Part shown: positions 28,065 to 63,895 of the stretch, in pieces
How positions within the stretch are numbered: position 1 is the first letter of the stretch
Layout of the letters: the number at the start of each line of letters is the position of its first letter
DNA from: Chamaelirium japonicum
Lineage: Eukaryota; Streptophyta; Magnoliopsida; Liliales; Melanthiaceae
DNA length: 64,000 nt
Assembly (NCBI GenBank): GCA_947650365.1
Contig: CANTAL010000202.1
Coordinates: 62,001 to 126,000, forward strand
Reading direction: 5' to 3'
Notes under the pieces: model-generated
What the model saw: the letters and a program-made list of their open reading frames with translations, nothing else
Database searches by the model: none
What the model was told of the DNA's origin: nothing
Program-made: the position numbers and the translations under genes

Positions 28065-28093
28065 ATTGAACTAGATCGGGAAGGGAAACCCTC

Positions 28094-30410: not shown

Positions 30411-30649
30411 ATTACACAATTGTCACGAATTACACTTGTACATCACTTCGTGAGAGTGGAATCATGTATCACCACGTGAGGAATCTGGTTTGACTAGGTG
30501 TTTCGAGACGTACGATGGGCCGGAAAAAGCATCGTAAGTGCTAGCGATGGAGCTTGATCGCGAACCCGTGGTGCTAGTTGAAATGATCGTACCTGACCAC
30601 GATCCGCCGAAAAGTGGCAAAAAAAAAACAAAGATGGTTTTTGTAAAAT

Positions 30650-30718
30650 GGGTGCAACACAATGACTTCCCAGAAGGTAACTCGTCCTAGTACTACTCTC
30701 GCCGAAGGACACTTAACT
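30650..30718 (-). pseudogene. 5S form B
   Basis: Box C changed at two places. The downstream spacer is shortened. Confidence 0.75.
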
Positions 30719-31195
30719 ACTAAATTAGATCGGGAAGGGAAACCCTCATATCAAATTTAAGGCAGATTAAATGACGATCTTAGACCATCCTATAATCTGC
30801 GACAGAGTTTTTAATTTAAAAAGATTTAGTCAATAATAAGTGACGGTCGAGAACCGTCGTTTAATTAAAAACCCTTCGTTTAATAAAGGACGGTCTAAGA
30901 CTGTTGTTTATTTATGTCCTATTTTCTTTGTTTTGGTGTAGTGGGACCAGGTGTTTTGGGATGTCCGGTGGGCCGAAAAAAGGGTCGTAAGTGCGGGCAA
31001 TGGAGCACAATTGTGAACCCGTGGTGCTCGTCGAAACGATCGTTTAGGCAGGTGGGCCACGACCCCCGGAAAAAGGGCCATAAGTGCGGGCGATGTAGCT
31101 CAATCACGAACCCGTGGTGCTCGTCCAAACGATCTTTTAGGCGGGTTGGCCATGACCCCTTGAAAAGTGGCAAAAAAAAGATGGTTACGTAAAAC

Positions 31196-31313
31196 GGGTG
31201 AAACACGAGGACTTCCTAGGAGGTCAGCCATCCTAGGACTACTCTCGCCCAAGCACACTTAACTGCAGAGTTCTGATGGGATCCGGTGCTTCAGTGTTGG
31301 TATGATCGCACTT
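31196..31313 (-). rRNA. 5S rRNA, form A
   Basis: 118 bp. Preceded on the + strand by two spacer units in tandem with no 5S gene between them (about 30940-31180), a local gene loss. Confidence 0.8.
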
Positions 31314-31563
31314 GTCATGTACTTGTCACCAATTACACTTATACATCACTTCGTGAGAGTGGAATCACGTTTGACCACGTGTGGAATCTGGTTTGACCAT
31401 GTGTTTTGAGACATACAATGGGCCGGAAAAAGCATCGTAAGTGCTAGCGATGGTGCTCGATCGCAAACCCGTGGTGTGCTAGTCGTAACGATCGTTTAGA
31501 TAGGTGGGCCACGACCAGTCAAAAAGTGGCAAAAAAATAAAAGAGGGATGGTTTTTGTAAAAT

Positions 31564-31632
31564 GGGTGCAACACATTGACTTCCCAGGAGGTCACCAATC
31601 CTAGTACTACTCTCGCCCAAGGGCACTTAACT
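31564..31632 (-). pseudogene. 5S form B
   Basis: Close to the form B consensus; box C intact. Confidence 0.78.
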
Positions 31633-32017
31633 ACTGAATTAAATCAGCAAGGGAAACCCTCATAAAAAATTTAGAGCAGATTAAATGACGGTCTAAGACC
31701 ATCTTATAATCTGCGACAGAATTTTTAATTTAAAAATATTTTGTCAATAATAAATGACGGTCGAGGACCGTCGTTTAATTAAAAACCCTTCGTTTAATAA
31801 ATGATGGTCTAAGACCGTTGTTTCTTTATGTCCTTTTTTCTTTGTTTTGGTGTAGTGGGACCAAGTGTTTCGGGACATCCGGAGGGCCGAAAAAAGGGTC
31901 TTAAGTGCAAGCAATAGAGCTCAATCGCGAACCTGTGGTGCTCGTCGAAACGATAGTTTAGGCAGGTGGGCCACGACCCCCTGAAAGTGGCAAAAACAAA
32001 AGATGGTTTCGTAAAAT

Positions 32018-32135
32018 GGGCGCAACACGATGACTTCTCAGGAGGTCACCTATCCTAGTACTACTCTTGCCCAAGCACGCTTGACTGCGGAGTTCTTATG
32101 GGATCCGGTGCTTTAGTGCTGGTATGATCGCACCC
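32018..32135 (-). rRNA. 5S rRNA, form A
   Basis: 118 bp with an intact first 25 nt; about seven changes elsewhere. Confidence 0.8.
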
Positions 32136-32539
32136 GTTATGCATTTGTCACGAATTACACTTATCCATCACTTTGTGATGTGTAACAAATTTAGGGCAGA
32201 TTAAATTGACGGTCTAAGGCCGTCCTATAATCTGCGACAGAGTTTTTGATTTAAAAACATTTATTTAATAATTTAAAAACATTTAGTTTATAATAAACGA
32301 TGGTTGGGGACCGTCGTTTAATAAATGACGGTCGATGATCGTAGTTTATTAATGTCCAATTTTCTTTGTTTGGTGTAGTGTGACCAGGTGTTTCGAGACG
32401 TCCGATGGGCTGGAAAAAGGGTTGTAAGTGTGGGCGATGTAGCTCAATCGCGAACCCATGGTGCACGTCCAAACGATTGTTTAGGCATGTGGGCCACGAC
32501 CCACTGAAAAGTGGCAAAAAAAAGATTGTTTTGTAAAAA

Positions 32540-32657
32540 GATTGCAACACGAGGACTTGCAAGGAAGTCACCCATTCTATTACTACTCTCACCCAAGCAC
32601 GCTTAACTGCGGAGTTCTAATGGGATCCGGTGCTTTAGTGCTAGTATAATCGCACCG
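32540..32657 (-). rRNA. 5S rRNA, form A (divergent)
   Basis: 118 bp, with box C changed (ttgcaaggaagtc on the + strand). The motif caccgtttatg is duplicated upstream. Confidence 0.78.
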
Positions 32658-32912
32658 TTTATGCACCGTTTATGCAATTGTCACGAATTACACTTGTACA
32701 TCACTACCTGAGAGTGGAATCACGTTTGACCATGTGTGGAATCGGGTTTGACTAGGTGTTTCGATACGTACGATATGCAGGAAAAAGCATCGTAAGTGCT
32801 AGCGATGGTGCTCGATCGGGAACGTGTGGTGCTAGTCAAAACGATCGTTTAGGTAGGTCGGCCACGACCCACCGAAAAGTGGCAAAAAAAAGAGAGATGG
32901 TTTTTATTAAAT

Positions 32913-32981
32913 GGGTGTAACACGATGACTTCCCAGGAGGTCACCCATCCTAGTACTACTCTCGCCTAAGGACACTTAACT
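32913..32981 (-). pseudogene. 5S form B
   Basis: Box C and the intermediate element intact; one change in the spacer-side A box. Confidence 0.78.
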
Positions 32982-33265
32982 ACTGAATTAGATTCGGAAG
33001 GGAAACCCTCGTAACAAATTTAGGGCAGATTAAATGACGGTCTAAGTCCATCCAATAATCTGTGACATAGTTTTTAATTTAAAAAGATTTAGCCAATAAT
33101 AAATGACGGTCGAGGACCGTCGTTTAATTAAAAACCTTTCGTTTAATAAAGGACGGTCTAAAACCGTTGTTTATTTATGTCCTATTTTCTATGTTCTGGT
33201 ATCGTTTAGGCAGGTGGGCCACGACCCACTGAAAAGTGGAAAAAAAAAAGATGGTTTAGTAAAAT

Positions 33266-33383
33266 GGGTGCAACACGAGGACTTCCCTGGAGGTCACCCA
33301 TCCTAATACAAATCTCACCGAAGCATACTTAACTACGGAGTTCTGATGGGATCCGATGTTTTAAAGCAGGTATGATCGCACCC
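33266..33383 (-). rRNA. 5S rRNA, form A (divergent)
   Basis: 118 bp, with changes concentrated in the intermediate element (taatacaaatct on the + strand). Confidence 0.78.
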
Positions 33384-33786
33384 AAAGTGCATTTGTCACG
33401 AATTACACTTATCCGTCACTTGGTGATGTATAACAAATTTAGGGCATATTAAATGATGGTCTAAGACCGTCCTATAATATGCGATGGAGTTTTAAATTTA
33501 AAAACGTTTTGTTAATAATTTAAAAAAAATTTGTTAATAATAAACGACGGTTGGGGACCGTCATTTAAAAAAGGACGGTCGAAGACCGTAGTTTATTTAT
33601 GTCCTATTTTCTTTGTTCGGTGTAGTGTGACCAGGTGTTTCGAGACGTCCGATGGGCCAGAAAAAGGGTTGTAAGTGCGGGCGATGTAGCTCAATCACGA
33701 ATCTGTGGTGCTCGTCCAAACGATCGTTTAGATAGATAGACCACGACCCACTGAAAAGTGGCAAAAAAAAAAATGGTTTCGTAAAT

Positions 33787-33904
33787 GGGTGCAACATGAG
33801 AACTTCCAAGGAGGTCACCCATCCTAGTACTACTCTAGCCCAAGCACGCTTAACTGCGGAGTTTTGATGGAATCTAGTACTTTAGTGCTGGTATGGTTGC
33901 ACCC
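33787..33904 (-). rRNA. 5S rRNA, form A (divergent)
   Basis: 118 bp, with changes at the start of the gene and in the 30-45 nt region. Confidence 0.78.
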
Positions 33905-46216: not shown

Positions 46217-46856
46217 TATGGGTGCAAAATCTAGCTAATGCCCAACGGTGGGACCCACAGCCCCGCTTGGGGCCCATAAGTCCAACGGTGGGACCCGCAG
46301 CCTTGCTTGGGGCCCACGAGTCCAGCGGTGGGACCCACAGCCCTGCTTGGGGCCCATTTGCACTATCTGGGGTCTGTTAAATCCCCCCGGGTATTTACCA
46401 AATCCCAGATATTTCGGAGAATATTCCTAGAATATTCCTCAGATAAACTAAGCCCTTATAAATAGCAACCCCTGTAAATGATTCCGGATCCGAAATTCCA
46501 GACTAGAAACCCACTTTCTGTAATCCAGAGCTCTTCGAGTTTCCTGGTTTTCAGACTCCTTTTCCACCCTCTAATTACTTGTAAGAAACACTCCTCGGCC
46601 TGTCGAGAGTAGCTCTACAGTTTACTCAGAGATAGTGGATTCAAAGGTTGCGTCTTATCGCACAAAGACGTAGGCTTCGGCCGAACTTTGTCACCACATC
46701 CTGTGTCAACACTTTCTCTACCTTTCTACTCTATAGTGCTTGTGTGACAGCCCAACAAGTCACAACTTAGCGCTTCGAAGCGCACCGCAACCCGAAGGGT
46801 CAAACCTTCAATCGACTGTTGGAGGAGGGTCACGTAGGCCGAAATCCTCCCCCACA
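46217..46856 (+). repeat. Tat-2 3' LTR
   Basis: 640 bp; starts TATGGG where the 5' copy has TGTGGG, a mutated terminus. Ends CCCCCACA. TATAAATA at 46456-46463. Confidence 0.93.
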
Positions 46857-46973
46857 GGTGCAACACGAGGACTTCTCAGGAGGTCACCCATCCTAGTACT
46901 ACTCTCGCCCAAGCACCCTTAACTGCGGAGTTCTGATGGGATCCAGTGCTTTAGTGCTGGTATGATCGCACCC
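46857..46973 (-). pseudogene. 5S form A, split by Tat-2
   Basis: Main part of the gene interrupted at 34462. With only about three changes from the consensus it is one of the best-kept full-length copies, but it has lost its proper 3' end and terminator. Confidence 0.85.
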
Positions 46974-47220
46974 ATTACGCAATTGTCATGAATTATACTT
47001 GTACATTGTTTTGTGAGAGTGGAATCACGTTTGACCATGTGTGGAATCTGGTTTGACCAGGTGTTTCGAGACGTACGATGGGCCGGAAAAAGCATCGTAA
47101 GTGCTAGCGATGGAGCTCGATTGCGAACCCGTGGTGCTAGTCGAAACGATCGTTTAGGCAGGTGGGCCACGACCTGCCGAAAAGTGGCAAAAAAAAAGAG
47201 AGAGATGGTTTTTGTATAAT

Positions 47221-47289
47221 GGGTGCAACACGATGACTTCCCAGGAGGTCACCCGTCCTAGCACTACTCTCGCCCAAGGACACTTAACT
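47221..47289 (-). pseudogene. 5S form B
   Basis: First form B of the ordered array; box C intact. Confidence 0.8.
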
Positions 47290-47674
47290 ACTGAATTAAA
47301 TCAGGAAGGGAAACCCTCATAACAAATTTAGGGCAGATTAAATGTTGGTCTATGTCCATCCTATAATCTGCAACAGGGTTTTTAATTTAAAATGATTTAG
47401 TCAATAATAAATGAAGGTCGAGGACTGTCGTTTAATTAAAAACCCTTCATTTAATAAAGGATGGTCTAAGACCTTTGTTTATTTATGTCCTATTTTTTTT
47501 GTTTTGGTGTAGCGGGACAAGGTGTTTCAGGACGTTCGGTGGGCCGGAAAAAGGGTCTTAAGTGCGGGACTGGAGCTCAATCGTGAACCTGTGGTGCTCG
47601 TCGAAATGATCGTTTAGGCAGGTGGGCCATGACCCACTGAAAAAGTGGCAAAAAAAAAGATGGTTTCGTAAAAT

Positions 47675-47762
47675 GGGTGCAACACGAGGACTCTCGCCCA
47701 AGCACGCTTAACTGCGGAGTTCTGATGGGATCCGGTGCTTTCGTGCTGGTATGATAGCACCC
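47675..47762 (-). pseudogene. 5S form C (box C deleted)
   Basis: 88 bp. A 30 bp deletion between direct repeats (act) removes box C and most of the intermediate element. The 5' half and A box are intact. Confidence 0.85.
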
Positions 47763-48141
47763 GTTATGCATTTGTCACGAATTACACTTATCCATCACTT
47801 CGTGATTTGTAACAAATTTAGGGCAAATTAAATGACGGTCTAAGACCGTCCTATAATCTGCGACTAAGTTTTTGATTTAAAAACATTTAGTTAATAATTT
47901 AAAAACATTTATTTAATAATAAACGACGGTCAAGGACCGTCATTTATTAACGGACGGTCAAAGGCCGTAGTTTATTTATGTCCTATTTTCTTTGTTAGGT
48001 GTAGTGTGACCAGGTGTTTCGAGACGACCGTTGGGCCGGAAATAGGGTCGTAAGTGCGGGAGATGAAGCTCAATCGCGAACCCATGGTGCTTGTCCAAAC
48101 GATCATTTAGGCAGGTGGGCCACGACCCACTGAAAAGTGGC

Positions 48142-48150
48142 AAAAAAAAA
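48142..48150 (-). terminator. Pol III T-tract downstream of 5S (representative)
   Basis: A run of nine T on the minus strand, about 16 nt past the 3' end of the gene at 48167. A comparable T-tract of seven or more follows nearly every 5S copy of all three forms. Confidence 0.7.
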
Positions 48151-48166
48151 GATGGTTTTGTAAAAC

Positions 48167-48284
48167 GGGTGCAACACGAGGACTTCCCAGGAGGTCACCC
48201 ATCTTAGAACTACTATCGCCCAAGCACTCTTAACTGCGGAGTTCTGATGGGATCCGGTGCTTTAGTGCTGGTATGATCGCACCC
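48167..48284 (-). rRNA. 5S rRNA, form A
   Basis: 118 bp with about four changes. Box A lies at about 48221-48235 and box C at 48187-48205 (minus-strand nt 50-64 and 80-98). Box C is intact; the intermediate element has three changes. Confidence 0.85.
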
Positions 48285-48531
48285 GTTATGCAACTGTCAC
48301 GAATTACACTTGTACATCATTTAGTGAGAGTGGAATCACGTTTGACCATGTGTGGAATCTGGTTTGACCAGGTGTTTCGAGACGTACGATGGGTCGGAAA
48401 AAGCATCGTAAGTGCTAACGATGGAGCTCGATCGCGAACTCGTGGTGCTAGTCGAAACGATCGTTTAGGCAGGTGGGCCACGACCTAACTAAAAGTGGCA
48501 AAAAAAAAAAGAGAGATGGTTTTTGTAAAGT

Positions 48532-48600
48532 GGGTGCAACACGATGACTTCCCAGGAGCTCACCCGTCCTAGTACTACTCTCGTCCAAGGACACTTGACT
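48532..48600 (-). pseudogene. 5S form B
   Basis: gagctc replaces gaggtc in box C on the + strand, a change shared by later form B copies. Confidence 0.8.
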
Positions 48601-48988
48601 ACTGAATTAAATCAGGAAGGGAAACTCTCATAACAAATTTTGGGCAGATTAAATGACGGTCTATGACCATCCTATAATCTGCACCAAAGTTTTTAATTTA
48701 AAATTATTTATTCAAAAATAAATGACGGTCGAGGACCGCCTTTTAATTATAAACCCTTCTTTTAATAAAGGATGGTCTAAGACCTTTGTTTATTTATGTC
48801 CTAATTTTTTTGTTTTGGTGTAGCGGGACAAGGTGTTTCGGGACGTTCGATGGGCCGGGAAAAGGGTCTTATGTGCGAGCAATGGAGCTCAATCGCGAAC
48901 TTGTGGTGCTTGTCGAAACGATCGTTTAGGCTGGTGGGCCACGATCCACTGAAAAAGTGGCAAAAAAAAAAAGATGGTTTCGTAAAAT

Positions 48989-49076
48989 GGGTGCAACAAG
49001 AGGACTCTCGCCGAAGCACGCTTAACTGCGGAGTTCTGATGGGATCCGGTGCTTTTGTGCTGGTATGATAGCACCC
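48989..49076 (-). pseudogene. 5S form C
   Basis: Same 30 bp deletion as at 47675; two further changes. Confidence 0.85.
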
Positions 49077-49480
49077 GTTATGCATTTGTCACGTATTACA
49101 CTTATCCATCACTTCGTGATTTGTAACCAATTTAGGGCAAATTAAATGACGGTCTAAGACCGTCCTATAATCTGCGACTGAGTTTTTGATTTAAAAGCAT
49201 TTAATTAATTATTTAAAAACATTTATTTAATAATAAACGATGGTCGGGGACCGTCGTTTATTAACGGACGGTCGAAGGCCGTAGTTTATTTTTGTCCTAT
49301 TTTATTTGTTTGGTGTAGTGTGACCAGGTGTTTCGAGACGTCCGTTGGGCCGGAAAAAGGGTAGTAAGTGCGGGAGATGTAGCTCAATCGCGAACCCATG
49401 GTGCTCGTCCAAACGATCGTTTAGCCAGGTGGGCCACGATCCACTGAAAAGTGGCAAAAAAAAAGATGGTTTTGTAAAAC

Positions 49481-49598
49481 GGGTGCAACACGAAGACTTC
49501 CAAGGAGGTCACCCATCCTAGTACTACTCTCGTCCAAGCACGCTTAACTGTAGAGTTCTGATGGGATCCGGTGCTTTAGTGCTGGTATGATCACACCC
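49481..49598 (-). rRNA. 5S rRNA, form A
   Basis: 118 bp with about five changes, including one at the start of the gene and one in box C. Confidence 0.83.
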
Positions 49599-49844
49599 GT
49601 TATGCAATTGTCACGAATTATACTTGTACATCATTTCGTAAGAGTGGAATCACGTTTGACAATGTGTGGAATCTGGTTTGACCAGGTGTTTTGAGACGTA
49701 CGATGGGCCGGAACAAGCATCGTAAGTGCTAGCGATGGAGCTCGATCGCGAACCCGTGGTGCTAGTCGAAACGATCGTTTAGGCAGGTGGGCCACGACTT
49801 GCCGAAATGTGGCAAAGAAAAGAGAGCGATGGTTTTTGTAAAAT

Positions 49845-49913
49845 GGGTGCAACACGATGACTTCTCAGGAGGTCTCCCGTCCTAGCATTACTCTCGCCCA
49901 AGGACACTTAACT
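49845..49913 (-). pseudogene. 5S form B
   Basis: Box C has two changes; the downstream T-tract is interrupted by C. Confidence 0.8.
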
Positions 49914-50299
49914 ACTGAATTAAATCAGGAAGGGAAACCCTCATAACAAATTTAGGGCAGATTAAATGACGGTCTATGTCCATCCTATAATCTGCGACAG
50001 AGTTTTTAATTTAAAATGATTTAGTCAATAATAAATGAAGGTAGAGGACCGTCGTTTAATTAAAAACCCTTCGTTTAATAAAGGATGGTCTAAAACCTTT
50101 GTTTATTTATGTCCTATTTTTTTTGTTTTGGTGTAGTGGGACAAGGTGTTTCGGGACGTTCGGTGGGCCGGAAAAAGGGTCTTAAGTGGGGGCATTGGAG
50201 CTCAATTGCGAACCTGTGGTGCTCGTCGAAACGATCGTTTAGGCAGGTGGGCCACGACCCACTGAAAAAGTTGCGAAAAAAAAGAAGATTTCGTAAAAT

Positions 50300-50387
50300 G
50301 GGTGCAACACGAGGACTCTCGTCCAAGCACGCTTAACTGCGGAGTTCAGATGGGATCCAGTGCTTTCGTGCAGGTATGATAGCACCC
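50300..50387 (-). pseudogene. 5S form C
   Basis: Same deletion; about five extra changes. Confidence 0.85.
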
Positions 50388-50791
50388 ATTATGCATTTGT
50401 CACGAATTACACTTATCCATCACTTCGTGATTTGTAACAAATTTAGGGCAAATTAAATGACGGTTTAAGATCGTCCTATAATCTGCGAATAAGTTTTTGA
50501 TTTAAAAACATTTAGTTAATTATTTAAAAACATTTATTTAATAATAAACGACGGTCGGGGACCGTTGTTTATTAACGGACGGTCAAAGGCTGTAGTTTAT
50601 TTATGTCCTATTTTCTTTGTTAGGTGTAGTGTGACCAGGTGTTTCGAGACGTCCGTTGGGCCGGAAAAAGGGTCGTAAGTGCAGGAGATGAAGCTCAATC
50701 GCGAACCCATAATGCTCGTCGAAACGATCGTTTAGGCAGGTGGGCCACGACCCACTGAAAAGTGGCAAAAAAAAAGATGGTTTTGTAAAAC

Positions 50792-50909
50792 GGGTACAAC
50801 ATGAGGACTTCCCAGGAGGCCACCCATCTTAGAACTACTCTCGCCCAAGCACTCTAAATTGCAGAGTTCTGGTGGGATCCGGTGCTTTAGTGCTGGTATG
50901 ATCGCACCT
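50792..50909 (-). rRNA. 5S rRNA, form A (divergent)
   Basis: 118 bp; A box altered (cactctaaatt on the + strand). Its 5' flank joins directly to the CACTA-derived spacer. Closely similar to the copy at 62463. Confidence 0.82.
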
Positions 50910-51314
50910 GTTATGCATTTGTCACGAATTACTTTTATCCATCACTTCGTGATTTGTAACAAATTTAGGGCAAATTAAATGACGGTCTAAGACCGTCCTA
51001 TAATCTGCGACTGAGTTTTTGATTTAAAAACATTTAGTTAATAATTTAAAAACATTTATTTTATAATAAACGACGGTCGGGGACCGTCGATTATTAAAGG
51101 ACGGTCGAAGGCCGTAGTTTATTTATGTCCTATTTTCTTTGTTCGGTGTAGTGTGACCAGGTGTTTCGAGACGTTCGATGGGCCGGAAAAAGGGTCGTAA
51201 GTGCGGGAGATATAGCTCAATCGTGAACCCATGGTGATCGTCCAAACGATCGTTTAGGCAGGTGGGCCACGACACACTGAAAAGTGGCAAAAAAAAAAGA
51301 AGGTTTTGTAAAAC

Positions 51315-51432
51315 AAGTGCAACACGAGGACTTCCCAGGAGGTCACCCATCCTAGTACTACTCTCGCCCAAGCTCGCTTAACTGTGGAGTTCTGATGGGA
51401 TCCGGTGCTTTAGTGCTGGTATGATCACACCC
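51315..51432 (-). rRNA. 5S rRNA, form A
   Basis: 118 bp with about five changes; box C and the intermediate element intact. Confidence 0.84.
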
Positions 51433-51681
51433 GTTATGCAATCGTCACGAATTACACTTGTACATCACTTCGTGAGAGTGGAATCACGTTTGACCATGTG
51501 TGGAATCCGGTTTGACCAGGTGTTTCGAGACGTACGATGGGCCGGAAAAAGCATCGTAAGTGCCAGCGATGGAGCTCGATCGCGAACCCGTGGTGCTAGT
51601 CGAAACGATCGTTTAGGCAGGTGGGCCACGACCTGCCAAAAAGTGGCAAAAAAAAAGAGAGAGAGATGGTTTTTGTAAAAT

Positions 51682-51750
51682 GGGTGCAACACGATGACTT
51701 CCCAGAAGCTCACCTGTCCTGGTACTACTCTCGTCCAAGAGGACACTTGA
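51682..51750 (-). pseudogene. 5S form B
   Basis: Carries the gagctc box C change and an extra short insertion (gag) beside the A box. Confidence 0.8.
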
Positions 51751-52141
51751 CTACTGAATTAAATCAGGAAGGGAAAACCCTCATAACAAATTTAGGGCAG
51801 ATTAAATGACGGTCTATGACCATCCTATAATCTGCGACAGAGTTTTTAATTTAAAATGATTTAGTCAGTAATAAATGACGGTCGAGGACCGTCGTTTAAT
51901 TAAAAACCCTTCGTTTAATAAAGGATGTCTAAGACCTTTGTTTATTTATGTCCTATTTTTTTTTGTTTTGGTGTAGCGGGACAAGGTGTTTCGGGACGTT
52001 CGGTGGGCCGGAAAAAGGGCCTTAAGTGCGGGCAATGGAGCTCAATCGCGAACCTGTGGTGCTCGTCCAAACGATCGTTTAGGCAGGTGGGCCACGACCC
52101 ACTGAAAAAGTGGCAAAAAAAAGAAGATGGTTTCGTAAAAT

Positions 52142-52229
52142 GGGTGCAACACGAGGACTCACGCCCAAGCACGCTTAACTGCGGAGTTCGGATGGGATCC
52201 GGAGCTTTTGTGCTGGTATGATAGCACCC
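52142..52229 (-). pseudogene. 5S form C
   Basis: Same 30 bp deletion; the next full-length gene that should follow is missing. Confidence 0.85.
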
Positions 52230-52688: not shown

Positions 52689-52807
52689 CTACTGAATTAA
52701 ATCAGGAAGGGAAAACCCTCATAACAAATTTAGGGCAGATTAAATGACGGTCTATGACCATCCTATAATCTGCGACATAGTTTTTAATTTAAAATGATTT
52801 AGTCAGT

Positions 52808-53421
52808 TGTGGGGGGAATTTTCCGAGCCGCCTTGATCAAGAATCCCACCCCACAGCCTTGATTGAATTGGATTGTTTGTAGAGTTAGAGATTAGAAAGT
52901 TGAGAAGGAGAGAGATGACACATGGAGTTGTTGTCGAAGTTCGGTCTTACGACCTACGTCTCCGGACGAGAGGTGCCACTTGATCTTCACTATAATATGA
53001 ATATAAAGGGTTGAGCGTTCTCTCGACAGGCCGAGAGAAGCTTTTTACAGTTGGGGTTGCACGGAGCAACAAGAAAAGAAACTAGGAGGAGAGAAGTAAG
53101 CTCTTGCACTTGCTCTGGATCTGGAATCCCTCTTCCTCTGATCGAATGACCAACCCCCTTCCTGGATGCCTTGGGGGTCCTTTTATAGCGTAGGCACGTG
53201 CCCGATGTGGCAGCGATGACGTGGCGCTGATGACGTGGCACTGGTTCTGGGCCTCCTTGCTGGGCCCTTATTGGGCTGTTGTTCGGGCCCAATAAGGGGT
53301 AGGGCTTGATCTGCGAGCCTCGTAGAGTGGGCCCATGTGAGCCCAGGCGGGCTTACCCATTTGGGCCGTTGCGCGGGCCCATGCTGCTCTGATCTGGTCC
53401 GGTACAATTTTTGCACCCACA
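52808..53421 (-). repeat. Tat-3 3' LTR
   Basis: 614 bp; on the minus strand begins TGTGGGTGCAAAAATTG and ends CCCCCCACA. TATAAAAG (minus) at 53187-53180. Confidence 0.96.
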
Positions 53422-53436
53422 GTTACCCCCTCCTAG
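53422..53436 (-). other. Polypurine tract of Tat-3
   Basis: Minus strand reads TAGGAGGGGGTAAC before the 3' LTR, matching the other two elements. Confidence 0.75.
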
Positions 53437-53559
53437 TCGGGTCAGGACCCCCTGGGTCGGCTGGGATTCCGAGGTGCAAACGCCTTAGGATCCTGGCGTG
53501 GTTGGCAAGGGCTGTCGGTGCCGCAGTTCGCATTAGCAGAGTCTCCTTCTGCCGATGCC

Positions 53560-53850
53560 GAGACCCTTTTGGCGCGGGCCAAAAGTCTCGATTTTGCGAG
53601 GGGGCGTTTCCGAAAAAGCAGTGTGTTTTCCGACCGAGTGGATACTGAGAGGGTACCGAGAGCATACCGAGAGCATACCGAGAGGGTATCGAGACCCTTT
53701 TGGTGCAAGCCAAAAAGTCTCGGTTTTGCAAGGGTGTGTTTCCGACAAAGCAGTGTATTTTCCGACCGAGTGGATACCGAGAGGGTACCGAGAGCATACC
53801 GAGAGGGTACCGAGAGCATACCGAGAGCATACCGAGACCCTTTTGGTGAA
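53560..53850 (-). repeat. Duplicated ~130 bp block with GGTACCGAGAGCATACC subrepeats
   Basis: Two copies of a block running from cgagaccctttt to a run of 8-10 bp units (gagggtaccga/gagcatacc). Each block has an inverted motif ccgag...ctcgg. Followed at 53865-53990 by a T-rich and (CT)n tract. Confidence 0.8.
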
Positions 53851-54084
53851 AGAACAGCTTTTTTTTTTCTTTTTTCCTTTTCTTTGGTTCGCATGAGAGA
53901 GCAGCGTCCCTCTCTCTCTCTCTTTCCTTTCTCTCTCTCTCTTTTTCCTTCTCTGTTTGTTTGTTTTTTTTTGCTCGGGTCTCGTTCTCATGGTACAGCA
54001 GCAGCATGGAGGTCGGCAGCAACAGCAGCGATGACGCGGCGAGTCGGGGTCCGGTGTGCCAGTGGTGGCCGGCGCGCTTGATGT

Positions 54085-54761
54085 CCTTAATCTGGGGGTG
54101 CTTGGAGACGATGAGGTGGAGGGAGGCGCCGATCCCGCCGCCGACGTCGACGAGCACCCTGACGTCGTCGAAGCCCGCCGTACCGCTCCAGGATGTTCTT
54201 CATGATGATGGTGGAGTGGCCCCGCATGCCGTCGTTGAACACCTTGTTGAACCTCGGGTTGGTTCCGTGGTACTCGAACGCCGATATCCCGAACGCCTTG
54301 TTGAACGGGATCCCACCCTCCAGCACTGCGTCCTTCAGGTAGTACCAGCTCTCCATCTGGACCCGGTCCTGGATCACCAGCACCCCCGACGCCATCGACA
54401 CCCCGTCCTCGTTCCTCGTCAGGAACTTGGTCACCGGCGCCGCCCCATAGAGCCGAGTGACACGGCCGTCGTCTCCGGTGGAGAGGGAGCAGGTGAGGAT
54501 GGAGTAGATGGTGAGGAGGCGTAGGACCCGGTCCAGCATCACGGGGGCCTGCGGGTTCTCGGTTGGTAGCTGGGCAGCGATCTCGGAGGGGGAGAGGTAG
54601 GCGCCGGGGCCGGCCTTGGAGATGATCTCGAATAGGTCGAGCTTGACGGCGGCCTTGAGGGTCATGGGGAGGACGGAGAAGCTCACCACCTGCATCGCGT
54701 ACATGCACGCCATCTCGTCATCGGCAGCCGCCACCGGGGGCTGGTTCTCGACGGAGCCCAT
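54085..54761 (-). pseudogene. Captured caffeic acid O-methyltransferase fragment (N-terminal ~60%)
   Basis: From ATG 54761 it reads M-G-S-V-E-N-Q and the COMT dimerisation region: [39 protein letters not shown]. About 225 of the usual ~365 residues are present. A 1 bp insertion at about 54172 shifts the frame just before the SAM-binding motif L-V-D-V-G-G-G. Homology stops soon after it (about 54088), so the catalytic His/Glu region is absent. No intron is visible. COMTs methylate caffeate and 5-hydroxyconiferyl units for lignin. The fragment lies in the same orientation as gag. Confidence 0.92.
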
Positions 54762-55790
54762 TGTTGGTCCCGGTGCGGCGGAGAGCGGTGGTGGCGGTTG
54801 GGAGGAGAAGGCCTGGATCGGGATTGACGCGCGCGTGATGGGAGGGAGCTCGGTTCGTCTGACCCCCTCCGTGTTATCTCGGTCGGCTGCGAGGAGAGGC
54901 TCGCATGGAGGAGTAGGCATCACGCAGCGTGATGGAGTGCGGCTGCTCGCGTGTAGGAGTTGGCATCGCACTGCATGGAGAGAACCGTGGGCTAGCGTCT
55001 CACATGGATGAGTTGGTGTCGCCAAAGACGGCCGTCGCTGCTTGGAGGGCGTGCAGATGCGGGGGAAGGCTCTGCCCTGAGCGAGGAGCTTTGCGAGCCA
55101 AGTTGAGGGTATGAAAGAGTCCTTCATCGCTGTGGCGAGCGGGATTGCGAGGTAGCTAGTGACGAGTTGATCTCTGGTTGTCTGTCCGGCCATCCCAGGG
55201 GAAGGCTTCAAACTCTTTCGGCCACCATGTCCTTTTGTGCGAGTGTCAGATCGATGCACATAAGGTTCCATCATGCTGGCACCAAAAAAGCAGTCTGTGC
55301 GGTCGTGAGGTATCGGGCTCGTTGACGTGTTGCTTTTCCAATGTCTTCTTTGGAGAAAAAGGCCTCAAAACCTCTCGACAGCCATAACTTTTCATACGTG
55401 CGTCGGATCAACGTGTATAAGGTGCCGTTGTGTCGGTGCCGAAAAACCGATCAAAGTGGACGTGAAACATCATACACCTTGACGAGTAACTTTTCCGGTA
55501 ATCACCTTCATAAAGAGATGACTCTAAAGAACGCATTGGCCGAGTGTCCTACGCGCGTCTTGAAGAGGCATCGATACGCGGTAACTCATCCGTCTCTGTT
55601 CGACACCCAACTGCACCTAGTTACTGTATTCACTAGGGACTGCAATCAGGTCCTAGCGATGACGTGACGGTTACCACGAGTCCATCCCCAGATAAGAAGG
55701 AGGAATTTTGCTTGTGAAGTTTGTACAGCCAACTCAATAGGTTTGGTGGAGATGCTATTCAACCAACCCAATGGAAGATAACTCTTTGTC
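54762..55790 (-). other. Sequence upstream of captured COMT
   Basis: The first ~40 bp before the ATG (minus strand) are C-rich like a COMT 5' leader. An open frame continues upstream from the COMT ATG to 55274 without recognisable domains. Around 55195-55490 two diverged copies of a ~140 bp unit (ttttgtgcgagtgtcagatcgat / ttcatacgtgcgtcggatcaacg type) are seen. Origin unknown. Confidence 0.45.
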
Positions 55791-55814
55791 ATTGGCTAAT
55801 CATTGTGTGTGGAT

Positions 55815-56790
55815 GACACCAAGCACCCCCCCTCTCGGTTTTCTGACGAAACCAAGGGGTGGGATGATATTGATGTCGTACACCCCCCCTCTCGGTTTTA
55901 TGTCGAAACCGAGAGGTGGGCTGCTGATGGCGCGCCATCACCCCTTCCCTACTCGGTTTTTTGTGCAAAACCGAGAGGTGAGACGCTGGTGGTATGCCGT
56001 CGCCCCTTCCCCACTCGGTTTGTGCGAAACCAAGGGAGGGTCACTTGTTGATGCCGACACACACCCCCTCTCGGTTTTCTGGCGAAACCGAGCGGTGTGC
56101 TGATGGAGTGCCGTCACCCCCTCCCCACTCGGTTTTTATGTGAAACCAAGGGGGGGTTGCTTGTTGATGCCGACACACACGCCCTCTCGGTTTTCTGACG
56201 AAACCGAGGGGTGGTTGTAGCTGATGGTGTACCGTCACCCCCTCCCCACTCGGTTTTTTATGCGAAACCGAGGGGGGGGGGTTGCTTGTTGATACCTACA
56301 CATACCCCCTCTCGGTTTTCTGACGAACCGAGGGGTGTGCTGATGATGGTGTGCCGTCACCCCCTCCCCACTCGGTTTTTTGTGCGAAACCGAGGGGGGG
56401 TTGCTTGTTGATGCCGACACACACCCCCTCTAGGTTTTTTTTGTTGACGAAACCGAGGGGTGTGCTGCTGATGGTGTGCCGTCACCCCTTTCCCACTCGG
56501 TTTTTGTGCGAGACCGAGGGGGGGCTGCTTGTTGATGCCAACACACACGCCCTCTCGGTTTTCTGACGAAACCGAGGGGTGGTTGTAGCTGATGGTGTGC
56601 CGTCACCCCTTCCCCACTCGGTTTTTGTGCGAGACCGAGGGGGGGCTGCTTGTTGATGCCAACACACACGCCCTCTCGGTTTTCTGACAAAACCGAGGGG
56701 TGGTTGTAGCTGATGGTGTGCCGTCACCCCTTCCCCACTCGGTTTTTGTGCGAAACCGAGGGGGGGCTGCTTATTGATGCCGACACCCCA
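55815..56790 (-). repeat. ~118 bp tandem array of CTCGGTTT stem-loops
   Basis: About eight units, each with two inverted pairs CTCGGTTTTnnnnnnAAACCGAG separated by ctgatggtgtgccgtcaccc and ttgttgatgccgacacac-type linkers. That gives roughly 16 potential hairpins in less than 1 kb, several with paired changes. Confidence 0.9.
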
Positions 56791-57160
56791 TTATTGGGGC
56801 TGCTAGAAGAGGCCAAAAAGTGTCGGTATTGAAAACAGTGTATTTTTTGAATTTTAGCCCTATTTGAAATCGACACTTTTTTGGTAAAACGCTGGTGCGT
56901 GGGGATGTCGGCGAGGGACAATGCTATATTCGAGGGGGCTTCTTAGAGATAATCTAGGATGACGCCGCATGATGGCCAGCCAGTCTTCACCCAAAGTACT
57001 ACCGCACCTGGTTACTGTATTCGTCAGGTACTACGGTCACGTGAGGGTGTTGACTTAGCCAGGATCAAGGAAGCACCATTTTATCCCGTGTTACCCACTG
57101 TCGACTGCACCAGTGTGGATACACGCACTGACAGAGTTAGACCAACGACTGACAGAGTCA
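56791..57160 (-). other. Linker between repeat arrays in Tat-3
   Basis: Contains one short inverted pair around aaaaagtgtcggta...gacacttttttgg (56815-56885). No coding signal. Confidence 0.4.
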
Positions 57161-57600
57161 CCTCGGACTTTGTCTTTGAATGCCAAGGGCTGGGCCTTGG
57201 GCTTGTAGAGTGTCGAGTCGTTGGTTGCCTTGAACTTTGTCTTCAAGTGCCAAGGACTGGGCCTTGGGCTTGTAGAGTGCCGAGGCATTGGTCGCCTCGG
57301 ACTTTATCTTCTAGTGCCAAGGACTGGGCCTTGGGCTTTTAGAGTGCCGAGGCATTGGTCGCCTCGGACTTTATCTTCTAGTGCCAAGGGCTAGGCCTTG
57401 GGCTTGTAGAGTGCCGAGGCATTAGTCGCCTCGGACTTTGTCTTCGAATGCCAAGGGCTGAGCCTTGGGCTTGTAGAGTGCCGAGGCATTGGTCGCCTCG
57501 GACTTTGTCTTCGAATGCCAAGGGCTGGGCCTTGGGCTTGTAGAGTGCCAAGGCGTTGGTCGCCTCGGACTTTGTCTTTGGGTGCCAAGGACATCTCCTT
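57161..57600 (-). repeat. 67 bp tandem repeat, six to seven copies
   Basis: Unit contains cctcggacttt, tgccaaggrctgggcc and ttgggcttgtagagtg; gggcc recurs every 67 bp (57192, 57259, 57326, 57393). Confidence 0.9.
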
Positions 57601-57654
57601 AAACTTGGTGCATGTCAAAGCGGCGACGTTTGCCTTGGACTTATTCTCTTCGCC

Positions 57655-58320
57655 TCGGATAAGTATGGTTGATAGTTTAACTTATCCTGGATTGTCAGGA
57701 GCATTTTTATCTGACTTTCGCCTTGAAAGGGCGTAGCCGAATTGCCTTCGAGTTTCCGACTTGAATGGGCGGAATCGAAGGTTTCTGGTTGACCTGGGTT
57801 ACCAGGAGCTTTTTAACGGACTTTAGCCTCGAGAGGGCGTAGTCGAATTGCCTTCGAGCTTCCGACTTGAATGGGCGGAATCGAAGGTCTTTGGTTGACC
57901 TGGGTTGCCAGGAGCCTTTTATCGGACTTTAGCCTCGAAAGGGCGTGGCCGAATTGCCTTCGAGCTTCCGACTTGAATGGGCGGAATCGAAGGTCTTTGG
58001 TTGACCTGGGTTGCCAGGAGCATTTTTTATCGGACTTTCGCCTTGAAAGGGCGTAGCCGAATTGCCTTCGAGCTTCCAACTTGAATGGGCGGAATCGAAG
58101 GTCTTTGATTAACCTGGGTTGCCAGGAGCCTTTTTATTGGACTTTAGCCTCGAGAGGGCGTAGCCGAATTGCCTTCGAGCTTCCGACTTGAATGGGTGGA
58201 ATCGAAGGTCTTTGGTTGACCTGGGTTGCCAGGAGCCTTTTTATCGGACTTTAGCCTCGAGAGGGCGTAGCTGAATTGCCTTCGAGCTTCTGACTCGAAT
58301 GGGCGGAATCGAACTTCGAG
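57655..58320 (-). repeat. 106-108 bp tandem repeat, six copies
   Basis: attgccttcga recurs at 57741, 57847, 57953, 58061, 58168 and 58274. Units also carry tgggcggaatcgaagg and gacctgggttgccaggagc. Confidence 0.92.
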
Positions 58321-58459
58321 AGATTTGATTTTGAGAAAAAAAGACACTTTATTGATATAACAAAGTTGCAGTTACACTTTTCCAGAAGTTGCCCAGCGGA
58401 CGTTACGATTATGCATCCATGTATTACATTGACTTTTTTTTCCTCCACTGCTGCTGCCT

Positions 58460-60114
58460 TTACTTCTCTCGACCTGGTTCCTTGTTAGCGAGGTAGCCAT
58501 CGAGCCGCCCTTCTTGGATCAGGTCTTCGATGTGATGCTTTAGCTTCCGACATGTAGAGGTTGGGTGGCCATGGCTGCGATGAAACTCACAGTAGGCTGT
58601 CGTATCTCCCGCCTGGTCGGAATTTGGAGGGAGAGGTTGTGGCCACTTGCAAAAGGGCTCGTTCTGTAAGTAGGCGAAGATGTCTTCAATGGAGGTGTTC
58701 AGCTCAGTGAACACCCTTTGCTCCCTTGGAGTTCGCCTCTTTTCTGCTGGAGGGGCTTTCGGATCTTCATTGTACCTTTTGGCCTGGGCCTTTTGGTCGG
58801 ACACAGCATGGGCAGACTTCTTGTAGCGTGCTTCATTAGGAGCTTCATCATCTTTCTTATGACGGGAGTCACGAGACTCGCGGGGCTCGCGTAGTCTTCT
58901 GGCCTGTTGATTGTCTTCCACCTCTACCTCCCGCTGTACGCGCTTGAACATTACCTCTAAGGTACTGGGAGGGTACCGGATGAAGTCGGTGTAGACGTGG
59001 AGCTCTGGCCGGATAGCATTCTGGAATGCCAGCATGATGGCCTCCTCATTCTGGGACCGACCGGTGAGCTCAGAGTGCTCATTACGAAACCTCATCGTGA
59101 AGCTCCTTAGAGACTCATCGGAGCCCATCTTCAGCCGGTAGAGTGTATCCAGCCTCTCTTTTGGCTTTAAGTTTAGCCGATAATGGTCCATGAAAAGTTC
59201 AGCCAACTCTTTGAATGTGGCCACCGTACCGGTAGGCAGTGTGTAGTACCAATCGATGGCAGGTCCCTCGAGGCTTCCCGCAAACATACGGCAGAGAACA
59301 TGGTTCTTATACTCGTAGGGCGTTAGGGCTTGCCTGTGGCTAGGATATGGAGAGCAGGGTCTCCCTGGATGCAATTGAACTTTGGCAGGCTCGGTGTTCG
59401 CCAATCCATAGGAAATGGTATTGCAAGAACCTTGGGATGTAGTGGCCCCACCGAGGTGATTAGCTGCCTGCGGTCTTGATGGCAGCGTCCCACGTCGGCA
59501 GTATGCCTTAGTCGGTTGAGCAGCTCGCGGGCATCTGTTGCTTTCATGTGCGAAGGGATAGAACATCCAGTGGACCCTATTGACTGAGGCGATCCTTCTC
59601 GGCGATAGCTTGGTGCACCATCGATGTTGAGGCGATCCCACACCGTTTTCCTTGGTGCTTGTGTGGATACCTGACACCTCTCGATTTTCGGCACATGTGG
59701 TTCTTCAAGATGATGACTTACGGCCGGGCGAGTCCTTTGTTGGTCTTCATCAGTAGCTAGAGAGTTGTAGGCCACAACCCCCGCTATTTCCACCGCATTC
59801 TTTAGGGAATCCCTCTCTTGCTCGAGGGTTGTGTTCCTCTTGAGGAGGTTCAGCAGCTAGAAATCAGCAGCCGAAATTTGGTATGTAGCTGAACCGTTGT
59901 CTTCTTGGGTGGCGTGCTCTTTGCCAGATCGTTGCCTCGGGAATGGTGGGTCCTGCTGATTGCTGCGGCTTCTCGGATGACTTCCTTGTGACCCCAGTCG
60001 CTTATGAACATTTCTTCGGTTGGTTGCAACCGAGACTTCTTGTTCTTCTTCGATTAGCACGTCGATTGTCCGATCAGCACCCGCCTTTGGTGGGTTGGTG
60101 CTGGCCTTCACCAT
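58460..60114 (-). pseudogene. gag: Tat-3 gag (one stop, one frameshift)
   Basis: Starts at ATG 60114. The in-frame TAG at 59857-59859 replaces the Q of the Tat-1 S-A-V-D-F-Q region. A frameshift near 59340 joins the C-terminal part, open to 58460. The gag core reads F-A-G-S-L-E-G-P-A-I-D-W-Y-Y, F-T-M-R-F-R-N-E-H-S-E-L and F-Q-N-A-I. The knuckle Y-C-E-F-H-R-S-H-G-H-P-T-S-T-C keeps the C-X2-H-X4-H-X4-C spacing. It is clearly homologous to Tat-1 and Tat-2 gag but diverged, so it represents a third family. After the stop at 58460 no protease follows. Confidence 0.9.
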
Positions 60115-60232
60115 TGAGCGAGTTGATGTCGGCGTGATGAAGGCGTTGAGGTTGATTTGGAGGAGGACTTATGGCTCGTCACCACAAGCTGAATAGGAGT
60201 CGGTAGAGGTGTGGGTAAAACCTCTATCGATA

Positions 60233-60249
60233 TCCCACAGACGGCGCCA
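60233..60249 (-). other. Primer binding site of Tat-3
   Basis: Minus strand TGGCGCCGTCTGTGGGA, about 6 nt after the LTR end. It is the cleanest of the three PBS sequences. Confidence 0.88.
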
Positions 60250-60254
60250 AAGAT

Positions 60255-60868
60255 TGTGGGGGGAATTTTCCGAGCCGCCTTGATCGAGAATCCCACCCCA
60301 CAGCCTTGATTGAATTGGATTGTTTGTAGAGTTAGAGATTAGAAAGTTGAGAAGGAGAGAGATGACACATGGAGTTGTTGTCGAAGTTCGGTATTACGAC
60401 CTACATCTCCGGGCGAGAGGTGCCACCTGATCTTCACTATAATATGAATATAAAGGGTTGAGCGTTCTCTCGACAGGCCGAGAGAAGCTTTTTACAGTGG
60501 GGGTTGCACGGAGCAACAAGAAAAGAAACTAGGAGGAGAGAAGTAAGCTCTTGCACTTGCTCTGGATCTGGAATCCCTCTTCCTCTGATCGAATGACCAA
60601 CCCCCTTCCTGGATGCCTTGGGGGTCCTTTTATAGCGTAGGCACGTGCCCGATATGGCAGCGATGACGTGGCGCTGATGACGTGGCACTGGTTCTGGGCC
60701 TCCTTGCTGGGCCCTTATTGGGCCGTTGTTCGGACCCAATAAGGGGTAGGGCATGATCTGCGAGCCTCGTAGAGTGGGCCCATGTGAGCCCAGGCAGGCT
60801 TACCCATTTGGGCCGTTGCGCGGGCCCATGCTGCTTTGATCTGGTCCAGTACAATTTTTGCACCCACA
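60255..60868 (-). repeat. Tat-3 5' LTR
   Basis: 614 bp, collinear with 52808-53421. TATAAAAG (minus) at 60634-60627. Confidence 0.96.
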
Positions 60869-61145
60869 TCAGTAATAAATGACGGTCGAGGACCGTCGTT
60901 TAATTAAAAACCCTTCGTTTAATAAAGGATGGTCTAAGACCTTTGTTTATTTATGTCCTATTTTTTTTGTTTTGGTGTAGCGGGACAAGGTGTTTCGGGA
61001 CGTTCGGTGGGCCGGAAAAAGGGCCTTAAGTGCGGGCAATGGAGCTCAATCGCGAACCTGTGGTGCTCGTCGAAACGATCGTTTAGGCAGGTGGGCCACG
61101 ACCCACTGAAAAAGTGGCAAAAAAAAAAAGATGGTTTCGTAAAAT

Positions 61146-61233
61146 GGGTGCAACACAAGGACTCTCGCCCAAGCACGCTTAACTGCGGAGTTCGGATGGG
61201 ATCCGGTGCTTTTGTGCTGGTATGATAGCACCT
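61146..61233 (-). pseudogene. 5S form C
   Basis: Resumes the array after Tat-3; same 30 bp deletion. Confidence 0.85.
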
Positions 61234-61639
61234 GTTATGCATTTGTCACGAATTACACGTATCCATCACTTCGTGATTTGTAACAAATTTAGGGCAAATT
61301 AAATGACGGTCTAAGACCGTCCTATAATCTGCGACCGAGTTTTTGATTTAAAAACACTTAGTTAATAATTTAAAAATATTTATTTTATAATAAACGACGG
61401 TTGGGGACCGTCGTTTATTAAAGGACGGTCGAAGGCCGTAGTTTATTTATGTCCTATTTTCTTTGTTCGGTGTAGTGTGACCAGGTGTTTCGAGACGTCC
61501 GATGGGCCGGAAAAAGGGTCGTAAGTGCGGGAGATATAGCTCAATCGTGAACCCATGGTGATCGTCCAAACGATCGTTTAGGCAGGTGGGCCACGACCCA
61601 CTGAAAAGTGGCAAAAAAAAAAAGATGGTTTTGTAAAAC

Positions 61640-61757
61640 AGGTGCAACACGAGGACTTCCCAGGAGGTCACCCATCCTAGTACTACTCTCGCCCAAGCGC
61701 GCTTAACTGCGGGGTTCTGATGGGATCCGGTGCTTTAGTGCTGCTATGATCGCACAC
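61640..61757 (-). rRNA. 5S rRNA, form A
   Basis: 118 bp; box C and the intermediate element intact, about five changes elsewhere, two of them within the first 15 nt of the gene. Confidence 0.84.
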
Positions 61758-62004
61758 GTTATGCAATGGTCACGAATTACACTTGTACATCATTTCGTGA
61801 GAGTGGAATCATGTTTGACCATGTGTGGAATCCGGTTTGACCAGGTGTTTCGAGACGTACGATGGGCCGGAAAAAGCATCGTAAGTGCCAGCGATGGAGC
61901 TCGATCGCGAACCCGTGGTGCTAGTCGAAACGATCGTTTAGGCAGGTGGGCCACGACCTGCCGAAAAGTGGCAAAAAAAAAGAGAGAGATGGTTTTTGTA
62001 AAAT

Positions 62005-62073
62005 GGGTGCAACACGATGACTTCCCAGGAGCTCACCCGTCCTGGTACTACTCTCGTCCAAAAGGACACTTGA
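62005..62073 (-). pseudogene. 5S form B
   Basis: gagctc box C change and the short A box insertion, as at 51682. Confidence 0.8.
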
Positions 62074-62462
62074 CTACTGAATTAAATCAGGAAGGGAAAA
62101 CCCTCATAACAAATTTAGGGCAGATTAAATGACGGTCTATGACCATCCTATAATCTGCGACAGAGTTTTTAATTTAAAATGATTTAGTCAGTAATAAATG
62201 ACGGTCGAGGACCGTCGTTTAATTAAAAACCCTTCGTTTAATAAAGGATGGTCTAAGACCTTTGTTTATTTATGTCCTATTTTTTTTGTTTTGGTGTAGC
62301 GGGACAAGGTGTTTCGGGACGTTCGTTGGGCCGGAAAAAGGGCCTTAAGTGCGGGCAATGGAGCTCAATCGCGAACCTGTGGTGCTCGTCGAAACGATCG
62401 TTTAGGCAGGTGGGCCACGACCCACTGAAAAGTGGCAAAAGAAAAAGATGGTTTTGTAAAAC

Positions 62463-62580
62463 GGGTGCAACACGAGGACTTCCCAGGAGGTCACCCATCC
62501 TAGTACTACTCTCGCCCAAGCACTCTAAATTGCAGAGTTCTGGTGGGATCCGGTGCTTTAGTGCTGGTATGATCGCACCT
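62463..62580 (-). rRNA. 5S rRNA, form A
   Basis: 118 bp; box C intact, A box altered (cactctaaatt on the + strand). It occupies the place where a form C copy is expected, which suggests an unequal exchange. Confidence 0.83.
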
Positions 62581-62985
62581 GTTATGAATTTGTCACGAAT
62601 TACTTTTATCCATCACTTCGTGATTTGTAACAAATTTAGGGCAAATTAAATGACGGTCTAAGACCGTCCTATAATCTGCGACTGAGTTTTTGATTTAAAA
62701 ACATTTAGTTAATAATTTAAAAACATTTATTTTATAATAAACGACGGTCGGGGACCGTCGATTATTAAAGGACGGTCGAAGGCCGTAGTTTATTTATGTC
62801 CTATTTTCATTGTTCGGTGTAGTGTGACCAGGTGTTTCGAGACGTTCGATGGGCCGGAAAAAGGGTCGTAAGTGCGGGAGATATAGCTCAATCGTGAACC
62901 CATGGTGATCGTCCAAACGATCGTTTAGGCAGGTGGGCCATGACCCACTGAAAAGTGGCAAAAAACAAAGATGGTTTTGTAAAAC

Positions 62986-63103
62986 GGATGCAACACGAGG
63001 ACTTCCCAGGTTGTCACCCATCCTAGTACTACTCTCGCCCAAGCACGCTTAACTGCGGAGTTCAGACGGAATCCGGTGCTTTAGTGCTGGTATGATCGCA
63101 CCC
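62986..63103 (-). rRNA. 5S rRNA, form A
   Basis: 118 bp; two changes in box C (ggttgtc on the + strand), A box intact. Confidence 0.83.
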
Positions 63104-63348
63104 GTTAGGCAATCGTCACGAATTACACTTGTACATCATTTCGTGAGAGTGGAATCACGTTTGACCATGTGTGGAATCCGGTTTGACCAGGTGTTTCGAG
63201 ACGTACGATGGGCCGGAAAAAGCATCGTAAGTGCCAGCGATGGAGCTCGATCGCGAACCCGTGGTGTTAGTCGAAACGATCGTTTAGGCAGGTGGGCCAC
63301 GACCTGCCGAAAAGTGGCAAAAAAAAAGAGAGATGGTTTTTGTAAAAT

Positions 63349-63417
63349 GGGTGCAACACGATGACTTCCCAGGAGCTCACCCGTCCTGGTACTACTCTCG
63401 TCCAAGATGACACTTGA
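63349..63417 (-). pseudogene. 5S form B
   Basis: gagctc box C change; variant of the short A box insertion (gatgac). Confidence 0.8.
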
Positions 63418-63807
63418 CTACTGAATTAAATCAGGAAGGGAAAACCCTCATAACAAATTTAAGGCAGATTAAATGACGGTCTATGCCATCCTATAATCTG
63501 CGACAGAGTTTTTAATTTAAAATGATTTAGTCAGTAATAAATGACGGTCGAGGACCGTCGTTTAATTAAAAACCCTTCGTTTAATAAAGGATGGCCTAAG
63601 ACCTTTGTTTATTTATGTCCTATTTTTTTTGTTTTGGTGTAGCGGGACAAGGTGTTTCGGGACGTTCGGTGGGCCGGAAAAAGGGCCTTAAGTGCGGGCA
63701 ATGGAGCTCAATCGCGAACCTGTGGTGCTCGTCGAAACGATCGTTTAGGCAGGTGGGCCACGACCCACTGAAAAAGTGGCAAAAAAAAAAAGATGGTTTC
63801 GTAAAAT

Positions 63808-63895
63808 GGGTGCAACACGAGGACTCTCGCCCAAGCACGCTTAACTGCGGAGTTCGGATGGGATCTGGTGCTTTTGTGCTGGTATGATAGCACCC
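63808..63895 (-). pseudogene. 5S form C
   Basis: Last copy in the window; same 30 bp deletion. The array continues past 64000. Confidence 0.85.

Follow-up and report, generated by a model that had tools for sequence, protein, structure and literature searches.

Structure of the COMT-bearing element

The region analyzed, referred to as the window, is a 64,000-nucleotide stretch of Chamaelirium japonicum DNA (C214:62001-126000) whose minus strand carries a complete LTR element of 8.06 kb (52808-60868; Table 1). Its two LTRs, each of 614 bp, differ at 13/614 positions (97.9% identity), and the element has the TG...CA ends and the target-site duplication by which LTR retrotransposons are recognized, the duplication being a perfect 5-bp TCAGT on both sides. 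The gag frame matches PF03732 (E 1.6e-7), and two O-methyltransferase domains, PF08100 (E 5.4e-17) and PF00891 (E 5.6e-13), are found on the same strand as gag, in a COMT piece that lies in sense to gag and is flanked by three tandem arrays and the 3' LTR. The intact LTRs, the TCAGT duplication and the Pfam domains thus bear out a preliminary description of this locus, in which a host COMT fragment was reported in sense inside a gag-only LTR element.

Gag is the sole element protein recognized, as that description had it; this holds for seven of the eight window frames of at least 170 codons, which were scanned with Pfam and contain no match to a pol domain. Two plus-strand frames, antisense to the element, were compared with Pfam for the antisense TRP28 frame of Retand/Tat elements and have no match, although TRP28 may lack a Pfam model. 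PF03732 was also detected in three of ten frames scanned from other loci, one of the three belonging to an inverted neighbor, and relative to other copies the gag of the window element is partly out of frame.

Both flanks of the element consist of a 5S rRNA gene array with an irregular spacing of roughly 360-520 bp. Matches to the 5S rRNA model of Rfam number 30 and lie exclusively on the minus strand, at 18780-33904, 46855-52229 and 61145-63895, and some of the gene copies around the element are apparently shortened.

Table 1. Features of the COMT-bearing LTR element (window coordinates)
Feature	Position	Strand	Basis
Target-site duplication TCAGT, left copy	52803-52807	.	Sequence
3' LTR	52808-53421	-	LTR comparison
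Polypurine-tract-like purine-rich stretch before 3' LTR	53422-53435	-	Read from sequence; function inferred
Tandem unit of 132 bp, 2 copies	53558-53826	-	Repeat analysis
Captured COMT block: 58 bp leader + 683 nt exon 1	54078-54819	-	711/742 columns identical, C6a gene
COMT coding piece, ATG at 54761, ~195 codons in frame, then frameshift	54079-54761	-	Frame comparison, Pfam
Tandem array, ~121-bp unit, 8 copies	55824-56786	-	Repeat analysis
Tandem array, 67-bp unit, 6.5 copies	57157-57590	-	Repeat analysis
Tandem array, 106-bp unit, 5.9 copies	57686-58313	-	Repeat analysis
gag open frame, 414 codons stop to stop	58463-59704	-	PF03732
Primer-site-like TGG-initial stretch after 5' LTR	60233-60249	-	Read from sequence; function putative
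5' LTR	60255-60868	-	LTR comparison
Target-site duplication TCAGT, right copy	60869-60873	.	Sequence

The captured block and its donor gene

A search of the 1.52-Gb genome with positions 54085-54761 as the query returned at least 29 matches, all repeat counts being lower bounds, of which 22 are element-type and seven are not. The latter comprise two C6 genes (96% and 92%), one C1 gene (78%) and four C7 rows (67-73%). In the closest of them, C6a, 711/742 aligned columns are identical to the window block, from 58 bp before the ATG to coding nucleotide 683, a likeness far beyond chance. The query positions, which the preliminary description had given as the extent of the fragment, do contain COMT sequence, but the 58 bp before the ATG are donor sequence as well, and the true block is 54078-54819. 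Similarly, the fragment is present but not as a run of about 225 codons: about 195 codons are in frame, and the last ~30 lie in another frame after a one-base frameshift.

C6a (C6:38442992) is an intact gene of three exons with GT/AG borders that encodes 362 amino acids, and the block falls wholly within its leader and its 727-nt exon 1. Among solved structures it matches 6i70_A, a plant-type O-methyltransferase (E 1e-172), and 1kyw_A, a COMT (E 1.9e-171), and its product is a putative enzyme akin to COMT. The captured frame covers only positions 1-58 of the 210 in the PF00891 profile, and a complete methyltransferase domain is absent. The second gene, C6b (C6:38410051), has a frameshift in exon 1 and aligns to C6a across the block as one uninterrupted stretch; a break inside the captured region is seen only in the C7 genes. 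This break and the match of only 67-73% led to the rejection of the C7 genes as donors, and the C1 gene was rejected at 78%. The reverse relationship, with C6a as a copy derived from the element, was rejected on account of its two introns and complete frame.

In a tree of the COMT pieces, for which bootstrap values had not settled, the 19 element copies form one clade (100/99) to which C6b is sister (94/92). There are 15 columns at which the long copies agree against C6a, and three of these are common to C6b, with C1 siding with C6a. On these comparisons, the tree and the columns shared with C6b, the donor is a gene of the two-gene COMT cluster of C6, perhaps of the C6b line; the higher raw identity of C6a reflects the greater divergence of C6b since then.

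Copies of the element and single origin

The 22 element-type matches, which answer the question of further genomic copies with the same COMT piece, include seven of type A (window-like), 11 of type B (~645 bp) and four of type C, which contain only the first 362 nt of the COMT coding sequence. Nineteen were read (seven, ten and two, respectively); the remaining three are C1:106575437 and C11:18868011, each with element sequence beside it, and C3:86194141, assigned by its match alone. The copies represent at most 20 distinct sites, because two pairs look alike at their flanks: C173 shares the TCAGT of the window and resembles it in its 5S flank, and the 15 nt next to the LTR are identical in C140 and C4:68. 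The C173 element (L012) is near-identical to that of the window, with a COMT identity of 99.7% and a 5S flank 98% like window 49342-51372, and is probably the same insertion on another haplotype or in a duplicated array segment.

The 5' junction of the block is identical in all 19 copies read. The 3' junction is identical in the seven type A copies, and a small deletion extends across it in all ten type B copies. The one-base frameshift is present in all 17 long copies and absent at that place in C6a, C6b and C1, and a 22-bp deletion within COMT is common to all ten type B copies. Stops occur in two of the 17 long copies and in both short ones. Because the 5' junction and the frameshift are shared in this way, the capture happened once. 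The preliminary description had allowed for the COMT piece being a separate later insertion. With the same 5' junction in every copy read, on many contigs, the probability that the piece was added later to a single element and had no part in the spread is negligible.

Several copies have rearranged surroundings. In two type C loci (L030, 1513-2129, and L031), the COMT sequence ends and is followed by sequence without a match to the window element, and type C represents a further rearrangement of the same cargo site. At L027 (5728-8137), a COMT-bearing copy directly adjoins LTR, leader and gag sequence of the family in inverted orientation; this inverted gag, a frame of 573 codons opposite to the COMT piece there, belongs to the neighbor. 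At L017 (1498-2643), a MULE transposase frame (PF10551, E 7.1e-7) adjoins a COMT-bearing copy.

Relatives without the COMT block

Six places that carry the element family without COMT were read, and in all six the homology with the element of the window breaks off at the 5' junction, past which they share a different sequence for ~145 bp. In two of the six it is regained no more than 2 bp from the 3' junction, with ~790 bp of native sequence between, and in the other four ~100-200 bp beyond that junction. Since the COMT-less relatives show their homology break at the junctions, the block replaced native element sequence.

One such relative, at C10:38.95 Mb, has gag, a GTACC duplication and LTRs with 10 mismatches in 624 columns, and the part of its 5' side that was analyzed contains no 200-codon frame outside the gag and leader region. 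The family was probably gag-only already without the capture, with ~2.6 kb of this relative unassigned. Among the loci read, no pol-bearing partner was found for the family. A candidate, a COMT-less member at L038, was rejected, as its pol-like frames are of Copia type (PF14223, PF07727); the Copia-type gag, integrase and reverse transcriptase frames within it (261-4277) are probably a nested insertion. Another COMT-less relative (L010, 5887-9404) lies ~1.8 kb from exons of a C7 COMT-like gene, a proximity that, given the copy number, is probably due to chance.

Route of capture

From the absence of an intron, the preliminary description had argued for capture through mRNA. That argument does not stand: the block corresponds to a single uninterrupted stretch of exon 1 in both C6 genes, and the comparison with the donor introns that the same description had proposed finds no intron in the region, the very outcome that it had named as removing the argument. 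Because the block lies entirely within exon 1, the missing intron is uninformative and does not tell RNA and DNA routes apart. Capture from RNA is nonetheless likely, on other and weaker grounds. At the 3' junction, donor and element have about 3 nt (CAA) in common. A TATATC motif conserved in both C6 genes precedes the 5' junction by 34 nt. The distance from TATA to the transcript start is usually ~32 nt, which places the 5' junction at about the expected start. The replacement between two points, the sense orientation, the ~3-nt overlap and the 5' end near the start all fit template switching during reverse transcription, which is preferred over DNA repair.

Alternatively, the block may have entered as DNA, if repair of a break in a genomic element used the C6 gene as a filler or conversion template and the product was then amplified. 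A two-point replacement with ~3 shared nucleotides would suit break repair equally, as would a few bases at the 5' junction that match neither parent, and a block within one exon could be genomic DNA. C6b, moreover, has another TATA-like motif 53 nt ahead of the junction, which would place the start further upstream; together with the unmatched bases and the intronless block, this leaves the DNA route some probability. Against it, the block begins near the likely transcript start with nothing upstream of it, and under repair its sense orientation would be a coin toss. Entry as DNA is on balance considered unlikely.

Under template switching, a gag-only, non-autonomous LTR family would have captured the start of a COMT gene once, from the C6 cluster (58 bp of leader and 683 nt of exon 1). 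During minus-strand synthesis, reverse transcriptase on element RNA would have switched inside exon 1 to a co-packaged COMT RNA, copied towards the 5' end of that RNA and, at or near this end, switched back to element RNA, such that the block took the place of the native stretch that separated the tandem arrays from the 3' LTR. The chimera would then have multiplied by normal retrotransposition, relying on enzymes provided in trans, and later recombination between elements would have placed the block on the type B backbone, followed by recent amplification. Taken as a whole, this sequence of a single capture by template switching, spread and later acquisition by a second backbone is the best explanation and is regarded as fairly probable. 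Abnormal template switching in plant LTR elements is described in a review (PMC13317346).

Separate histories of block and backbone

A comparison of types A and B (five of seven type A and eight of ten type B elements, 40 pairs) gives a median difference of 2.5% in COMT, as against 8.2% on the 3' side and 5.4% and 8.5% on the 5' side. Within type A (10 pairs), COMT differs by 2.8% and the adjoining sequence by 4.1%, 3.6% and 2.0%; within type B (28 pairs), the values are 0.7% and 1.1%, 0.9% and 1.0%. On these within-group values, COMT is not simply slow-evolving. Fixed differences between the types (six of seven type A and all ten type B elements) number 3/699 in COMT and 1/76 and 1/105 immediately adjacent, and rise to 10/279, 8/168 and 13/84 further out. 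At such fixed sites, which bear on the direction of any transfer, the COMT-less copies do not side with one type throughout: they agree with type B at 5/9 in 54820-55139, and with type A at 9/13 in 55319-55382 and at 6/10 in 53422-53700.

It is well supported that block and backbone have distinct histories. We read the pattern as an exchange of a segment of approximately 53990-54931, with ~100 bp of flank on each side of the block, between backbones, and the transfer could have occurred by template switching between element RNAs or by gene conversion between genomic copies. The captured piece would in that case be a cassette, captured once, then crossing between backbones by recombination, with one backbone spreading recently; the balance is tipped slightly in favor of this description.

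The type B backbone amplified recently. LTR pairs of three type B copies have 1/390, 2/373 and 3/615 differences, two of these comparisons using only part of the second LTR, and at a substitution rate of 1.3e-8 per site and year these correspond to ~0.1-0.2 Myr. One type B copy is flanked by the target duplication CGCCC. At the same rate, the 13/614 differences of the window LTRs correspond to ~0.8 Myr; those of C173, the duplicate site of the window, differ at 7/405.

Selection and possible function

For gag, omega is 0.15-0.32 in nine of ten pairs; the closest pair, with 26 changes, has a value of 1.23. The window gag is compared over only the 286-293 codons in the same frame, and the neighbor's gag at L027 enters four of the ten pairs. 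Compared with C6a, the COMT pieces have an omega of 0.39-0.75 in the seven type A copies, 0.77-1.23 in the ten type B copies and 0.28 in the two type C copies. Three pairs of type A pieces have values of 0.27-0.31 on 6-10 synonymous changes, which is not clearly neutral; other pairs have 0.48 (A-B), 0.85 and 1.28 (a B pair), and the C6a-C6b gene pair has 0.52. Ten changes are confined to the element stem, and these are distributed 4/3/3 over the codon positions.

With a frameshift common to the long copies and its C-terminal half missing, COMT is taken to be a passenger sequence and is inferred to be passive cargo from which no enzyme would be made, with the possible qualification that the first 195 codons in type A may be under some constraint. 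The contrary reading is that the piece is functional and that the elements yield COMT-like protein fragments or small RNAs acting on the C6 COMT genes. The low omega of the three type A pairs could be taken in its favor, as could the fact that of the 663 21-mers in the C6a piece, 389 are found in one or more of the 19 element copies (287 in the window copy), which shows only that small-RNA action is possible. At the C1 gene and the C7 loci, no shared 21-mer occurs. This, the frameshift throughout the long copies, the 22-bp deletion throughout type B, the stops, the even distribution of the stem changes, and the omega near one of type B, in contrast to that of gag, all make a function highly improbable.

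Relation to known elements

Gene capture by plant LTR elements has often been inferred from single chimeras. In the present case a single genome displays a donor-like gene, COMT-less relatives, both junctions, two copy groups and a change of backbone, so that the steps can be tested singly. Should element RNAs recombine so readily, host sequence, once captured, could travel through an element population apart from the element that captured it. The case is also a warning that the lack of an intron in a captured piece does not prove an RNA route unless the donor exons have been checked, and that such element copies may be miscounted as COMT genes.

Gene capture by LTR elements is known from Bs1, rice and sorghum, and gag-only elements are known as TR-GAGs. 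Host sequence inside LTR elements has been surveyed across genomes (PMC3726574), and 1343 cases in sorghum are given in a review (PMC13317346). Such surveys provide many cases, whereas here one event is followed through its donor, COMT-less relatives and copies. None of the papers listed on LTR capture, transduplication and recombination of transduced sequence appears, from its title and opening abstract text, to report this COMT capture.

Tandem arrays and a long region ahead of the 3' LTR are also typical of the Retand/Tat elements, some of which are non-autonomous (PMC11963269). Their extra frames are described as mainly antisense and of unknown origin (PMC11963269), whereas the extra frame here is in sense and of host origin; the window element has the tandem-repeat region of this group and contains no pol by which its lineage could be placed. 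TR-GAGs also consist of two LTRs with gag as the only recognized element protein, and can transpose with help (PMC8704663). The active TR-GAG cited there is of Copia type; the element described here differs in that its gag matches PF03732, not a Copia model, and in carrying a host gene piece. In maize, the LTR element Bs1 likewise contains fragments captured from host genes, none of them a full frame (PMC13317346), and two features of Bs1-type capture, host sequence between LTRs and copies with the same junctions at several sites, are found here. Bs1 holds pieces of three genes, whereas the present family holds one, captured once, in many copies and with a change of backbone. The COMT-bearing family is therefore best regarded as a new and well-documented example of Bs1-like capture in a TR-GAG-like element.
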